A stretch of DNA of 47,283 nt from Tepidiphilus sp. J10 (lineage in GTDB: Bacteria; Pseudomonadota; Gammaproteobacteria; Burkholderiales; Thiobacillaceae): contig CAMDHJ010000011.1 of assembly GCA_945897865.1 (NCBI GenBank), positions 1 through 47,283 of the forward strand, given 5' to 3'. This document shows positions 36,942-46,799 of the stretch, one piece after another. Below the pieces are notes generated by a model, which made no database searches, had not been told where the DNA came from, and saw only the letters and a program-made list of their open reading frames with translations. Made by a program: the position numbers and the translations under genes. Positions within the stretch are counted from its first letter, which is position 1. Every line of letters begins with the position of its first letter.

Positions 36942-36953
36942 TGCCGGGAAGGA

Positions 36954-37028
36954 TGGTGTGGGTGATGGTTGATGGGGAATGGGAAATGGGACGCTTGCGG
37001 CCCATCTCTCATCTCTCATTCCCCATTA
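36954..37028. repeat. Inverted heptamer (STRR-like) array between accB and accC
   Basis: Left arm: consecutive 7-mers GGTGATG (36961), GTTGATG, GGGAATG, GGAAATG to 36988, with a weaker unit before. Right arm: CCCATCT (37001), CTCATCT, CTCATTC, CCCATTA to 37028. The arms are roughly reverse complements (ATGGGGAATG with CATTCCCCAT), so the transcript can form a long imperfect hairpin with the spacer GGACGCTTGCGG. Period 7 and degenerate units recall cyanobacterial short tandemly repeated repetitive sequences. Confidence 0.75.
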
Positions 37029-37061
37029 CCGCCTTCTTTCCCCCTTTACCGGGGTTAAAGC

Positions 37062-40498: not shown

Positions 40499-40510
40499 CC
40501 GCCCCGCTAT

Positions 40511-40682
40511 CGTTCTCGCGGGAGAGCGCCGGAAGCAAGTTGCCGGCCGCCGAAGGCGCAACGCCACCCGCAACCGCTCAGGCAAAATGGACCGCGAGAA
40601 TTGGGCAACTCTGGAGAGCGCCGCGCATTTGCCATGTTGCGGACACCGATGGGGCAAATCTCTCAGGTAACCGGACAGAGGG
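40511..40682 (+). promoter_or_regulatory. Tandem glycine riboswitch (two aptamers)
   Basis: Aptamer 1 (about 40513-40600) is closed by TTCTCGC with GCGAGAA and contains GGGAGAGC, GCCGAAGGCGCAA and CGCTCAGGCAAAATGGACCG. Aptamer 2 (about 40609-40680) is closed by CTCTG with CAGAG and contains GGAGAGCG, CACCGATGGGGCAAAT and CTCTCAGGTAACCGGAC. These are the conserved glycine-aptamer cores. The short linker between the two is normal for cooperative tandem forms. In this class glycine usually turns on gcv genes, consistent with the downstream operon. Confidence 0.95.
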
Positions 40683-41663: not shown

Positions 41664-42741
41664 CCTGAAACAGACCCCGCTCATCTACAAACACCGTGAA
41701 GCCAACGCCAAACTGGTCGATTTCTCCGGCTGGGAAATGCCGATCCACTATGGTTCGCAGATCGAGGAACACCATATCGTGCGGCGCGACGCCGGCATGT
41801 TCGATGTGTCGCACATGCTGCCGGTCGATCTGAAAGGCGAGGGCGCGCGTGACTTCCTGAAAAAGCTGGTTGCCAACAACGTCGATAAGCTGCAGACCAC
41901 CGGCAAGGCGCTGTACAGCTGCATGCTGCACGAAGGCGGCGGCGTGGTGGACGACCTGATCATCTACTTCCTCAACGAATCCTGGTTCCGCATCGTGGTC
42001 AACGCCGGTTGCGCCGACAAGGACATCGCCTGGATGGAAGTGCAACTGGCAAAACATGCGCCGAAGCTGACCCTGACACCACGCCGCGACCTCGCCATGA
42101 TCGCCGTGCAAGGCCCCAACGCCGCCACCAAACTCTGGCAGGCGATGCCCGGCATGCAGGAACTGGCCGGGCCGATGAAGCCCTTCTTCGCGGTGGTCGT
42201 CGGCGACATGTTCGTCGCCCGCACCGGTTACACCGGCGAGGATGGTTTCGAAATCATGCTGCCGGCGAAAGCCGCGCCATTCTTCTGGCAGGCTTTGCTG
42301 GATGCCGGCGTCAAACCCTGTGGCCTCGGCGCACGCGATACCTTGCGCCTGGAAGCCGGCATGAACCTGTACGGCCAGGATATGACCGAAGCGACGACGC
42401 CGCTGGAATCCGGCCTCGCCTGGACGGTGGACCTGAAATCCGAGCGCGATTTCATCGGCCGCTCATCGCTGCTGCACTTGCCGCGTTCCCGCCAACTGGT
42501 TGGTCTCAAGCTGATCGAGCGCGGTGTGTTGCGCAATCATCAGTCGGTATTCACCGCAGAAGGCGAAGGCGAAATCACCAGTGGTTCTTTTTCGCCGACG
42601 CTGAATGGCTCGATAGCGCTGGCGCGCGTGCCGGTCGGGGTCAATATTGGCGACACGGTCGAGGTGGAAGTCCGCGACAAGCTGATGCGGGCGTTGGTGG
42701 TGAAATACCCGTTTGTGCGCAACGGTCAGCCGTTGGTTTGA
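41656..42741 (+). CDS. gcvT: Glycine cleavage system T protein (aminomethyltransferase)
   Basis: 361 residues, overlapping lipA by 8 bp. [20 protein letters not shown] and [17 protein letters not shown] are N-terminal GcvT blocks; [18 protein letters not shown] and [16 protein letters not shown] bind the folate; [20 protein letters not shown] is the C-terminal signature. It transfers the methylene group from aminomethyl-GcvH to tetrahydrofolate with release of ammonia. Confidence 0.97.
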
Positions 42742-42781: not shown

Positions 42782-43174
42782 ATGTCCAACATCCCCACCA
42801 ACCTCAAATACACCAAGTCGCACGAATGGGTCCGCCTGGAAACTGATGGCAGCGTTGCCGTCGGCATCACCCAGCATGCACAAGATCTGCTCGGCGACAT
42901 GGTTTTCGTTGAAAACCCGGTGGTTGGTCGCCAACTTGCCGCTGGCGAAGAATGCGCCGTGGTCGAATCGGTGAAAGCCGCTTCCGACGTATATGCACCG
43001 GTCGCCGGCGAAGTGCTGGCCGCCAATGCCGATGTCGAAGCCAGCCCGGAAAGCATCAACCAGGACGCCTACGCCGCCTGGATGTTCACGCTGAAGCCGG
43101 CCAATGCCGACGATCTGGACGGCTTGATGGATGCCGCGACGTACGCGGCGCACGTCGAATCGGAAGCCCACTGA
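42782..43174 (+). CDS. gcvH: Glycine cleavage system H protein
   Basis: 130 residues. The lipoylation lysine is K65 in [14 protein letters not shown], preceded by the standard [20 protein letters not shown] and [10 protein letters not shown]. GcvH shuttles the aminomethyl group between P, T and L proteins on its lipoyl arm. ACAGGAG precedes the ATG. The 103-bp gap to gcvPA is almost wholly filled by the heptamer array. Confidence 0.97.
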
Positions 43175-43182
43175 GTATTGAT

Positions 43183-43269
43183 GCAAGGGACAAGGATCAA
43201 GGAAAAGCCCCGCTGCCGGCTTCCCCTTGCCCCTTGTGCCATGCCCCTTGTTCCTTGCCACCTTGCACC
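43183..43269. repeat. Inverted heptamer (STRR-like) array between gcvH and gcvPA
   Basis: Left arm: GCAAGGG (43183), ACAAGGA, TCAAGGA to 43203. Right arm: CCCCTTG (43223), CCCCTTG, TGCCATG, CCCCTTG, TTCCTTG to 43257, then a looser CCACCTTGCACC. The right arm is the reverse-complement type of the left (CAAGG/CCTTG). It ends 8 bp before the gcvPA start codon and leaves no recognisable Shine-Dalgarno sequence. Confidence 0.8.
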
Positions 43270-43277
43270 TATAAAAA

Positions 43278-44687
43278 ATGCCCTTCATTCCGCATACAGA
43301 ATCCGACATCGCCGCCATGCTGGCGAGCATCGGCGCATCCTCCACCGATGCGCTGTTCGATGAAATTCCTACCGACCTGAATTGCGGCGGTTTGCCCGGC
43401 ATTCCCGATGGCCTGTCGGAAATGCACGTCAGCCGCTTGATGAACCAGCGCGCGGTGCAGGACGGATTCTTCAGCAACTTCATCGGTGCCGGCGCCTACG
43501 AGCATCACATTCCGGCGGCGGTGTGGCAGATCGTCACACGCGGCGAGTTCTACTCCGCCTACACGCCTTATCAGGCCGAAGCCAGCCAGGGCACGCTGCA
43601 ACTTTTGTACGAATACCAGACCATGATGGCCAGCCTGACCGGGCTGGATGTCTCCAACGCCTCGCTCTACGACGGCGCTTCCGCGCTGGCTGAGGCGGTG
43701 CTGATGGCGGTGCGCGCCAACAAGGCCGGTTGCCGCCGCGTGCTGGTGCCGGCTTCGGTGCATCCACGTTATCTGGCGGTGACACGGACGACGGTGAAAA
43801 ACCAGAACATCGAACTGGTCAGCGTGCCGTTCGACAGGACGACTGGCATTGCCGACCTGGCCGCATTGGACGCAGTCACGGGCGACTTTGCCGCTTTGGT
43901 CATCCCGCAGCCCAATTTCTTCGGCGCGCTGGAACCGGTCGATGCGCTGACTGACTGGGCACACGCGCACAACATGCTGGCGATTGCTGTGGTGAATCCG
44001 CTGGCGCTGGCTTTGCTGAAGCCGCCAGGACAGTGGGGCGAGGCCGGCAAAAGCCAGGGCGCTGATATCTGCGTCGGCGACGGCCAGCCGCTCGGCGTGC
44101 CGATGTCTTCCGGCGGCCCCTATTTCGGCTTCATGACTACCCGCCAGTCTCTGGTACGCCAGATGCCGGGCCGCATCGTCGGACGCACAGTCGATCTCGA
44201 TGGTCAGCCTGGTTTTGCGCTGACTTTACAAGCCCGCGAGCAGCATATCCGCCGCTCCAAGGCAACGTCCAACATCTGCACCAACCAGGGTTTGCTGGTG
44301 ACGGCCGCTACCATCCACATGTCGCTGCTGGGACCGGAAGGACTCAAGAGCGTCGCACTCGAATCGCATGCCAAGACGCGCGCATTGCTGGAAAAACTGC
44401 TCGCTGTGCCAGGCGTTGAGCGCGTCTTCAACTCGCCGTTCTTCCATGAAGCGGTGATCCGGGTCAGCACCTCGGTTGATGATGTGCTGCGTGCGTTGCG
44501 CGCGCAGGGCATTCTCGGTGGTCATGCGTTGGGTGGCGATTACCCGGAACTGGCCGACTGCATTCTGGTCTGCGCTACTGAAACCAAAACCGATGAAGAC
44601 CTTGAGCATTATCGGCAACAATTGCAACGTATTCTGAGTCGGCGCAACGGGCGAGAGCCCGGCGTGCCGCCTTGCGCCTACAAGTAG
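43278..44687 (+). CDS. gcvPA: Glycine dehydrogenase (decarboxylating) subunit 1
   Basis: 469 residues, the N-terminal half of the split P protein. [35 protein letters not shown] and [20 protein letters not shown] are standard GcvPA blocks; the PLP-fold region without the catalytic Lys covers [20 protein letters not shown] onward. With GcvPB it decarboxylates glycine and loads GcvH. The start lacks a clear ribosome site (see the array upstream). tpx follows after 26 bp. Confidence 0.96.
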
Positions 44688-44713
44688 TTCAATCCACACA
44701 AAGGAGACATCAC

Positions 44714-45226
44714 ATGGCAACAGTCACTCTCGGCGGCGAACCCATCTCGGTTGGCGGCAATTTCCCGCGCGTTGGCGATTCCGCGCATTCCTTCATGCTG
44801 GTCGACAAGGATCTGAAGGACGTCTCCCTGTCCTCCTTCTGGGGCAAGCGCAAGATTCTCAACATCGTGCCCAGCCTGGATACGCCGACTTGTCAGGCTT
44901 CCGCCCGCAAGTTCAATGAACTCGCGGCGAGCATTCCAAACACCGTCGTACTGGTCATTTCCGCCGATCTGCCGTTTGCGCAGAACCGCTTCTGCGGCGC
45001 CGAAGGCCTCAAAAACGTCATCACCCTATCCACCATGCGTGGCCGTGATTTTCACAAGGATTACGGCGTCATGATCATGGACCCGCCGTTGTCCGGCCTT
45101 ACCGCCCGCGCCGTCATCGTGCTGAACGAAAACGACAAGGTGGTGTATTCCGAGCTGGTACCTGAAATCAAGCAGGAACCCACTTACGAAGCCGCACTGG
45201 CGGCTGCCAAAGGGGAACCGCTTTAA
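44714..45226 (+). CDS. tpx: Thiol peroxidase (atypical 2-Cys peroxiredoxin)
   Basis: 170 residues. The peroxidatic Cys is C60 in [17 protein letters not shown] and the resolving Cys is C94 in NRFCGAEGL, as in E. coli Tpx; the start [15 protein letters not shown] is canonical. It reduces peroxides using thioredoxin. AAAGGAG is placed seven to eight bases before the ATG, unlike its gcv neighbours. It lies between the two P-protein genes of the gcv operon, which is unusual and may give protection of the lipoyl and PLP enzymes from peroxide; that is inference. Confidence 0.96.
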
Positions 45227-45233
45227 ATTGATT

Positions 45234-45350
45234 CAAGGTTCGAGGGGCAAGGTTCAAGGGGCACGGTTCAGGCAGATCCTTCCTCGCCAAGCCCAAGTCC
45301 CTTGCACCATGTAACTTGCCCCATGCCCCATGTAACTTGCCCCCATCCCC
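45234..45350. repeat. Inverted heptamer (STRR-like) array between tpx and gcvPB
   Basis: Left arm: AAGGTTC (45235), GAGGGGC, AAGGTTC, AAGGGGC, ACGGTTC to 45269. Right arm: seven consecutive 7-mers CTTGCAC (45301), CATGTAA, CTTGCCC, CATGCCC, CATGTAA, CTTGCCC, CCATCCC to 45349. The last unit abuts the gcvPB ATG at 45351. The unit type differs from the other two arrays but has the same period and G-rich/C-rich opposition. Confidence 0.82.
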
Positions 45351-46799
45351 ATGCTCATCTTCGAACACGCTCATCCCGGTCGCCGTGCCCATGCCCAGGC
45401 GCCCTATAACGCACCCGCCGCTGACGATCTGCCGGCCGACATGCTGCGGCAGACGCCGCCGTTGCTGCCGGAAACTTCCGAGCTCGATGTGGTGCGCCAC
45501 TACACCGGGCTGAGCCAGAAGAATTTCAGCATCGACACCCAGTTCTATCCGCTGGGATCCTGCACGATGAAATACAACCCGCGCGCCTGTAATTCGCTGG
45601 CCATGCTGCCGCAGTTCCTCGGTAGGCATCCGCTGGCGGATGAGTCAACCGGGCAAGGTTTCCTGGTCAGCATGTATGAATTGCAGGAAATGCTGAAGGA
45701 AGTCACCGGCATGGCAGGGGTCAGCATGGCGCCGATGGCCGGCGCGCATGGTGAATTCGCCGGCGTGGCGATGATCCGCGCCTATCACGACGCGCGCGGC
45801 GACACGGCGCGACGCGAGATCATTGTGCCGGATGCCGCACATGGCACCAATCCGGCCACCGCAACGATGTGCGGCTACGTCGTGAAGGAAATCCCCACCG
45901 ATCGCCAAGGCAATGTCGATCTGGAGGCGTTGAAAGCCGCTGTCGGTCCGCAGACTGCCGGCCTGATGCTGACCAACCCATCGACTTTGGGTGTATTCGA
46001 GAAAACCATCGTCGAAATCCAGAAGATTGTCCACGCAGCCGGCGGTCTGAGCTATTACGACGGCGCCAACCTGAACGCGATTCTTGGCCGCGTGCGACCG
46101 GGCGACATGGGTTTCGATGTCATCCACATGAATCTGCACAAGACCTTCTCGACGCCACACGGCGGCGGCGGCCCGGGTGCCGGTCCGGTCGGCGTATCGG
46201 AACGGCTGATTCCGTTTTTGCCGATTCCTTACGTCATCAATGAACGTGATTTTTACCGCTGGGCGGTTGAAGCCGATGTGCCGCAAAGCATTGGCCGCAT
46301 GAGCGCCTTCGGCGGCAACATGGGGGTGCTGCTGCGCGCCTACGTATACGCCCGCATGTTGGGCGGACGCGGCATGCAGCGGGTGGCTGAATTTGCCGCG
46401 CTGAACGCCAACTACCTGGCGGTGGAACTGAAAACAGCCGGCTTCGAACTGGCCTTCCCGGAACGCCGCGCCAGCCATGAATTCATCGTCACGTTGAAGA
46501 AACTGAAGGACGAAACCGGCATTTCCGCGATGGATTTCGCCAAGCGCCTGCTCGACTACGGCTTCCATGCGCCAACCACTTATTTCCCGATGCTGGTGCC
46601 GGAATGTCTGCTCATCGAGCCGACCGAAACCGAAAGCAAGGAAACGCTGGATGCCTTTGTACAGGCGATGATCGCAGTCAAACGTGAAGCTGAAAGTCAG
46701 CCTGATCTGGTCAAAACCGCGCCGCACAAACTGCCGTCGCGTCGTCTGGATGACGTCAAGGCAGCGCGTGAACTTGATCTGGTCTGGAAAGCGGCGTGA
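45351..46799 (+). CDS. gcvPB: Glycine dehydrogenase (decarboxylating) subunit 2
   Basis: 482 residues, the C-terminal half of split P protein. [20 protein letters not shown] is the family start, which fixes the ATG at 45351 even though no Shine-Dalgarno is present: C-rich heptamers run up to it. [27 protein letters not shown] and [18 protein letters not shown] follow, with the PLP-binding lysine K264. The stop overlaps the dgkA GTG start. Confidence 0.96.

Follow-up and report, generated by a model that had tools for sequence, protein, structure and literature searches.

Why would the spacers at two junctions of a single operon be built of short mirrored repeats, and what keeps them there? 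The question arises at the end of the 47,283-nt stretch of DNA from Tepidiphilus sp. J10 that we analysed (hereafter, the window), where a glycine riboswitch precedes gcvT-gcvH-gcvPA-tpx-gcvPB and a gene for diacylglycerol kinase (Pfam and Rfam; Table 1). A first-pass annotation had described the gcvH-gcvPA gap (gap 1) and the tpx-gcvPB gap (gap 2) as inverted arrays of degenerate 7-bp units in strict phase that could fold into long imperfect hairpins. The arrays are indeed there: lag 7 is the best of lags 4-12 in both gaps (identity 0.51 and 0.50), each with p = 0.0003 against 3000 base shuffles. The period of 7 stands and the strictness does not, as several units are degenerate and the mirror in gap 2 does not run unit for unit. 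Array 1 stops 8 bp short of the gcvPA ATG, with TATAAAAA in between, and array 2 reaches the gcvPB ATG directly. The predicted folds have energies of -34.5 kcal/mol in gap 1 and -40.1 kcal/mol in gap 2. Judged against dinucleotide shuffles, this supports the first hairpin well (z -3.78) and the second one weakly, because its z is only -1.58. A search for intrinsic terminators (GC stem plus T-run) between 42600 and 45500 returned one site, at 42720-42735, and none in either gap, and the riboswitch was the only Rfam family at gathering score in the whole window, with no match in the gaps. The annotation had overlooked a third inverted array, at accB-accC.

Table 1. Features of the gcv operon, its two intercistronic arrays and the accB-accC array in the window
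Feature	Coordinates	Strand	Evidence
gcvH	42782..43174	+	Pfam GCV_H 5e-40
gcvPA, no Shine-Dalgarno	43278..44687	+	Pfam GDC-P 6e-122
tpx (redoxin/AhpC-TSA family)	44714..45226	+	Pfam Redoxin 2e-34
gcvPB, no Shine-Dalgarno	45351..46799	+	Pfam GcvP2_C 8e-31
Glycine riboswitch aptamer, operon upstream side	40509..40604	+	Rfam RF00504, 66.8 bits
gcvH-gcvPA gap (gap 1), inverted heptad array	43175..43277	+	lag-7 0.51, p 0.0003; RNA fold z -3.78
Gap 1 left G-rich arm, CAAGGNN x3	43184..43202	+	sequence, motif search
Gap 1 right C-rich arm, CCTTGNN units (one CCATG)	43225..43265	+	sequence
tpx-gcvPB gap (gap 2), inverted heptad array	45227..45350	+	lag-7 0.50, p 0.0003; fold z -1.58
Gap 2 left G-rich arm, CAAGG-type	45234..45272	+	sequence; recovered by motif-free scan
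Gap 2 right C-rich arm, CATGNNN/CTTGNNN units reaching start codon	45299..45350	+	sequence
Shine-Dalgarno AAAGGAG of tpx	44700..44706	+	sequence; SD 4-mer in 18/18 genomes of genus
Third inverted heptad array, accB-accC gap (GATGGGG/AATGGGA ... CATCTCT/CATTCCC)	36942..37061	+	lag-7 0.48, p 0.0003; fold z -3.33

The annotation further proposed that the arrays replace the ribosome-binding regions of the two P-protein genes. Its observation was correct, in that tpx has a Shine-Dalgarno (SD) sequence and neither gcvPA nor gcvPB is preceded by any SD 4-mer in the window. Across the genus, however, the same holds with or without arrays: an SD 4-mer precedes tpx in 18/18 genomes, gcvPA in 0/20 and gcvPB in 0/18. 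Four of these genomes have array-free gcvH-gcvPA gaps (34 nt in G225, 19 in G210, 13 in G226 and 3 in G213) and their gcvPA is still SD-less; in G226 and G213, where the gap is shorter than 17 nt, the bases further upstream also hold no SD. Because SD is absent in array-bearing and array-free genomes alike, the SD-less state is independent of the array in the window's own genus, and replacement finds no support there. In a second genus (described below), an SD 4-mer precedes gcvPA in 0/16 heptad-type gaps and in 4/4 others (AGGT in L376, L377, L380 and L385, the four gcvH-gcvPA gaps without heptads), so displacement by arrays is possible in that genus. Both SD states occur before gcvPA in other families, and one array there (L401) retains its SD. 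A takeover of the ribosome-binding region by arrays that tune P-protein translation would suit the SD-less starts, the 0-8 bp between arrays and start codons and the split in the second genus; set against the own-genus counts and L401, we think it unlikely. What can be said plainly is that the arrays accompany SD-less starts. In six genome samples, the downstream gene has an SD in 7/28 heptad gaps versus 132/280 other codirectional gaps (p 0.028), or, counted the other way, is SD-less in 21/28 versus 148/280. The gcvPA-tpx gap, which bears an SD, has no array in any of the 9 gaps long enough to be tested (of 18).

The annotation had suggested looking for further copies with variable unit number, and these exist: CAAGGNNCAAGGNNCAAGG has 33 matches in the genome (3.89 Mb in 247 contigs, 86% complete) and its reversed control has 0. 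An overall excess of period 7 is seen in one measure and not in another. Lag 7 is the commonest period in 439 background gaps (31, with 2-15 at each other lag between 4 and 12), and near-perfect tandem segments in a 447-kb sample of the own genome show no standout (6 at lag 7, 6 at lag 9, 10 at lag 12). In the sample of G222, lag 7 does stand out among such segments, with 22. Heptads as a general component of intergenic DNA were rejected, as pooled autocorrelation gives no lag-7 excess in G000, G220 and G088 and an excess of only 0.5-0.6% in G222, G218 and G212. Within the family, CAAGGNNCAAGGNNCAAGG matches occur in 28/117 genomes (own included) and very unevenly, with 104 in G222, 63 in G217 and none in 89 genomes. 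The inverted CAAGG pattern, present in the own genome, was found in 0/199 others drawn from the order and in 10/16 genomes (own included) taken from the 28 with matches. A wider contig scan returned at least 110 stretches with CAAGG arrays, and the 80 examined fall by record name in 10 phyla, 45 of them in Pseudomonadota.

Heptad units resemble each other within a genome (mean cosine 0.270, 208 pairs) far more than between genomes (0.033, 782 pairs; the comparison set still held one N-run gap), and each genome therefore has its own heptad pool, on which the gcv gaps appear to draw. The own genome also holds one-armed, near-perfect (CCTTGAA)n or (CCTTGCC)n arrays (L003, L009, L018, L023, L025), several of which, read by eye, appear to begin within the stop codon of the preceding gene (TTGAACC). 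A second inverted heptad family, GATTTCG, occurs in the CAAGG-rich G222 (L222 10770-10921, L223 9846-9959, L215 14103-14217) and in the tpx-gcvPB gap of G220 and G224. Two contigs, L120 (Nitrospirota) and L137 (Planctomycetota), carry several inverted heptad arrays inside 8 kb.

We then compared the gcv junctions across the genus, calling a gap heptad-bearing when lag 7 reached p <= 0.005 against shuffles and treating gaps of at least 40 nt as testable; since p derives from shuffles, counts shift by 1-2 between runs. Twenty-two of 23 genomes have gcvPA, and its upstream side was read in 20. At gcvH-gcvPA, 12/16 testable gaps pass at lag 7, which is the best lag in 15/16; at tpx-gcvPB, an array is present in 12/18. 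Every other lag from 4 to 12 gives just 0-2 passes per set in these gaps. The background rate in the six genome samples is 32/439 gaps of 60-150 bp, a count that leaves out the window's two gcv gaps and L316 (a run of N), draws on samples excluding the second genus, and uses genes called by a simple codon-usage script, so that starts are approximate. Heptads occur there in 28/308 codirectional gaps versus 4/131 others (p 0.027) and in 21/169 SD-less codirectional gaps. Against this last class, the gcvH-gcvPA (12/16), tpx-gcvPB (12/18) and second-genus (14/20) counts are all enriched (Fisher p 1.7e-7, 1.2e-6 and 8.4e-8), although the genomes are related and their counts non-independent, which weakens the contrast.

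The position recurs and the unit differs. The gcv gaps of the genus contain CAAGGGG (G000, G229, G217, G222), GATGGGG/GAATGAG (G216), ACTGAGT (G212, G220), GGCGAGT (G088), AGTCGGT (G218) or an ACTGCAA type (G211), and the tpx-gcvPB gap has GGATTTC in G220 and G224. G216 (GATGGGG) and G217 (CAAGG) are sisters on the gcvPA tree (support 84/85). Among 20 genomes from 18 other families of the order, 19 have gcvH upstream; most gcvH-gcvPA gaps are short (11/19 below 40 nt), and 3 of the 8 testable ones, from three families, pass with further units. Because the same mirrored design occupies the same places with different heptamers in related species, the sequence may matter less than the folded shape. 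Folding strength is uneven: heptad gaps that fold little better than base shuffles exist at gcvH-gcvPA (G221 -0.8, G129 -2.3) and at tpx-gcvPB (G226 -1.3, G129 -1.8, G221 -2.0), and some non-heptad gaps hold another strong hairpin (z -12.7 in G224, -12.6 in G223). As side observations, GTAG-headed REP-like hairpins lie in heptad-free gaps of some species (L238 and L252 at gcvH-gcvPA, L233 at tpx-gcvPB), and gcvPA of G220, G223 and G222 (L251, L252, L253) has an in-frame insert of ~20-30 codons (..LTPSPSPE..GE..APLRGG..). The insert resembles a dispersed palindromic repeat that is translated, and a similar repeat is found in the gcvPA-tpx gap of G220, G223 and G224.

The second genus shows the same recurrence. 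A search of 31 genomes found gcvPA in 30, and of the 20 whose gap was read, 14 pass (15 in a rerun), with TCAGGGG, CTAGGGG or GTGAGGC units, and L382 and L387 fall just outside the threshold (0.0057 and 0.0060). The four gaps with other structures are L376 (z -12.2), L377 (-9.8), L380 (-3.9) and L385 (-2.5). Thirteen gaps share an alignable central stem, and covariation was examined in 33 of its 35 RNAalifold pairs. In eight of the gaps the left arm reads CAGG and the right mostly CCTG, and in five the arms are mostly TAGG and CCTA, a joint switch of both arms. In-register pairing holds in 94.1% of cells and drops to 28.7-53.7% when the partner is slid by 1-3 columns, a comparison that favours the in-register version since the stem came out of that very alignment. 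Double-sided changes are seen in 26 cells versus 11.9 after shuffling, and 0/500 shuffles reach as high. Two other measures in these 33 pairs and 13 gaps are unremarkable, namely pairs with double changes (10 versus 8.0 shuffled, 58/500) and pair types (25 versus 25.4). On the flanking-gene tree, the five TAGG rows do not group as a single clade (AU p 0.0057), and the best tree has 4 changes; since well-supported branches yield only 1 independent pair, how many times the arms switched independently is uncertain, and recombination could give the same appearance. The cross-species covariation in this genus lends support to the hairpin idea. Within the CAAGG arrays of many genomes, rung-by-rung pairing does not exceed rung-shuffled controls (0.536 versus 0.522, p 0.24; 64 of 100 arrays), and the five G222 arrays taken alone go in the opposite direction (0.346 versus 0.448). 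Mirror pairing in CAAGG arrays compared across arrays (0.536 versus 0.314) was set aside as evidence, being confounded by genome and negative in the within-array test.

On this sequence evidence, we tentatively read the gcv gaps as intercistronic mRNA hairpins whose shape is kept and whose sequence is replaced, an explanation to which we give somewhat less than an even chance. A neutral or selfish repeat process is a serious rival, close behind and with a substantial chance of its own. On this view, slippage and copying within the genome create and spread heptad tracts, which survive where they hit no SD or promoter and owe their matched arms to quasi-palindrome template switching rather than selection. 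The likeness of units within genomes, the preference for codirectional gaps and SD-less downstream genes, and the existence of one-armed arrays all agree with it, as does the gene tree of the second genus, on which unit families are unclustered (10 changes versus a shuffled mean of 10.6, on a weak tree with 13/17 inner branches below 80). Simple tolerance, however, leaves two things unexplained: the excess at the gcv junctions, whose contrast with the background is weakened by kinship, and the presence of different hairpins in some of these gaps.

The arrays also have a polarity that any mechanism must account for: the G-rich arm comes first, on both strands, and this extends to unrelated heptamers in several phyla. 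The reverse CAAGG order (C-rich arm first) was found in 0/16 genomes, of which 10 have the G-rich-first order. A motif-free scan of the six genome samples gave 26 inverted heptad arrays, with a G-skewed left arm in 24, a C-skewed one in 0 and a neutral one in 2, compared with 181 G-first versus 111 C-first among other inverted repeats in the same samples. In the 80 CAAGG-selected loci, 24 arrays of other units divide into 22 G-first, 1 C-first and 1 neutral, versus 47 and 29 for other inverted repeats; the single C-first array lies in a Bacteroidota MAG (L105 1044-1153). At the gcv gaps themselves, heptad-free ones included, G-skew is higher in the left half than in the right in 54/54 (16/16, 18/18, 20/20). 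As the rule is identical on either strand, it cannot stem solely from the direction in which the DNA is transcribed or replicated. We guess that Rho would be loaded by a C-rich arm if that arm emerged first.

Two further explanations look to the arms as such. The C-rich heptads by the start codon could be binding sites read by a trans-acting protein such as S1, a cold-shock protein, CsrA or Rho; the skew of the right half in all 54 gaps fits, and such proteins have been proposed for TAACTGA heptads near starts (MacGregor 2015, PMC4679880). Since the unit sequence is not conserved between species, a fixed protein specificity is unlikely, and we consider the explanation improbable. Alternatively, the arrays could be G-quadruplex elements, as proposed for GGGNATC heptads. 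CAAGGGG and GGGAATG units do contain G-runs, quadruplexes of other units were detected by CD (Rehm 2015, PMC4692102), and the two-tier motif (G2+N1-7)x4 is present in 8/12, 10/12 and 15/15 heptad gaps in the three sets of gcv gaps. The three-tier motif (G3+N1-7)x4, on either strand, is found in only 0/12, 2/12 and 2/15 of them, so that it was rejected as a shared feature, and we regard the quadruplex explanation as very improbable.

The accB-accC gap was considered as a second hotspot of the genus, and this is partly borne out. In 17 gaps read among 21 genomes, one is 11 nt long and 8/16 testable ones pass p <= 0.005; two of the passes are in ~207-nt gaps that include a copied accC start, and some gap ends are doubtful. 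Eight do not pass, with G217 (0.011) and G228 (0.014) near the threshold. Upstream of accC in G129, G212, G222 and G218 (L352, L356, L357, L358), there is a copy of the first accC codons (MFEK.LIANRGD), followed by ~80 nt of similar sequence. It sits just before the real accC start, as if an insertion had duplicated the beginning of the gene.

How might a hairpin act here? The elements would be intercistronic stem-loops made of genome-specific tandem heptamers, whose units presumably multiply by 7-nt slippage and by copying inside the genome; what is kept at the gcv junctions would be the hairpin in the gcv mRNA and not its sequence. Its likeliest job is that of a REP-type hairpin, in which, following cleavage by an endonuclease or arrest by Rho, the stem would block 3'-5' exonucleases. 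The gcvT-gcvH and tpx cistrons on its upstream side would then persist and the SD-less P-protein genes decay; P-protein is needed in smaller amounts (stoichiometry). Once unfolded, the C-rich 3' arm may leave a G-poor leader at the start codon. Recurrence at the junctions, turnover of units, covariation of the arms, other hairpins in some heptad-free gaps, a gcvPA-tpx gap without an array and the accB-accC counts speak for the hairpin. Against it speak the 4/20 genus genomes with 3-34 nt gcvH-gcvPA gaps and no hairpin, the short gaps of other families, the weak folds of some heptad gaps (gap 2 of the window included), the rung-shuffled comparison in CAAGG arrays and the two unremarkable covariation measures. 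A genome-wide proxy for protection of small abundant proteins was also negative, as heptad gaps are not preceded by smaller genes (median 264 vs 235 aa, p 0.51). A stronger version, that selection acts on position, period 7, arm pairing and strand polarity and that the heptamer is repeatedly replaced from the genome's own pool, is possible but doubtful. If it is true, neither homology nor covariance-model searches would see such sequence-agnostic hairpins, which could occupy many operon junctions in many phyla.

The arrays are real, more general than the first-pass annotation said, and partly known. Cyanobacterial STRR heptads are tandem heptamers between genes. They differ from the arrays described here in that only a few paired inverted cases were found in Nostoc (Rehm et al. 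2015, PMC4692102). The annotation took this form to be unfamiliar in proteobacteria, but the same paper prints convergent heptad pairs for Xanthomonas, 70 and 75 in two genomes, with function unknown. Those Xanthomonas and Nostoc repeats share with ours the period of 7, a mostly intergenic location, many copies, a preference for codirectional genes and a G-rich strand that is the coding one downstream of stops and the non-coding one upstream of starts; the Xanthomonas pairs are also convergent, with the G-rich strand inward. They differ in their unit (GGGNATC or GGGGA(C/T)T, versus CAAGGNN at gcv and GGGAATG-like only at accB-accC) and in the three-tier quadruplex motif, which is mostly absent here. 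Moreover, one unit and 83% of positions are common to two species there, whereas the arrays described here stay in place and change their unit. The TAACTGA heptads of Beggiatoaceae (PMC4679880) also lie close upstream of starts where canonical SD sequences are rare, but they are direct repeats of one fixed unit, with one inverted set among 169; the gcv gap sequences of the genus do not match such direct arrays. Heptanucleotide elements in Geobacter metallireducens (PMC2700814) are likewise dispersed, with four or five tandem heptamers; their units differ, and the passages on them describe no conserved operon site. Other heptads are described in PMC6749651, and PMC13104608 treats a gcv operon, with no such repeats mentioned in the passages available. 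In searches of open-licence papers, we found no report of a conserved heptad site with a changing unit, nor of heptads in gcv operons.

REP/BIME intercistronic hairpins of the malE-malF type stabilise upstream mRNA, and the REP sequence has a GTAG-type head. Read by eye, the heptad gaps of the genus have no such head, and GTAG-headed hairpins are found in some sister gaps. Both kinds of element are dispersed palindromes between operon genes with the same proposed function; REP/BIME elements, however, form one sequence family per genome group, whereas the stem here consists of changing heptamers. The malE-malF type is also cited in PMC5927463, where the protective structures behind differential decay in E. 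coli operons lie mostly inside coding regions, and stem-loops are described as setting complex stoichiometry in PMC4423207. The bacterial heptad repeats of the cited papers (2009, 2015) were described without a known function. A junction at which the architecture is kept and the unit differs in dozens of genomes is a natural experiment, and comparison of the gcv junctions separates structure from sequence and from quadruplex motifs. Relative to these known systems, the new part is a design that persists at given operon junctions while its unit turns over.
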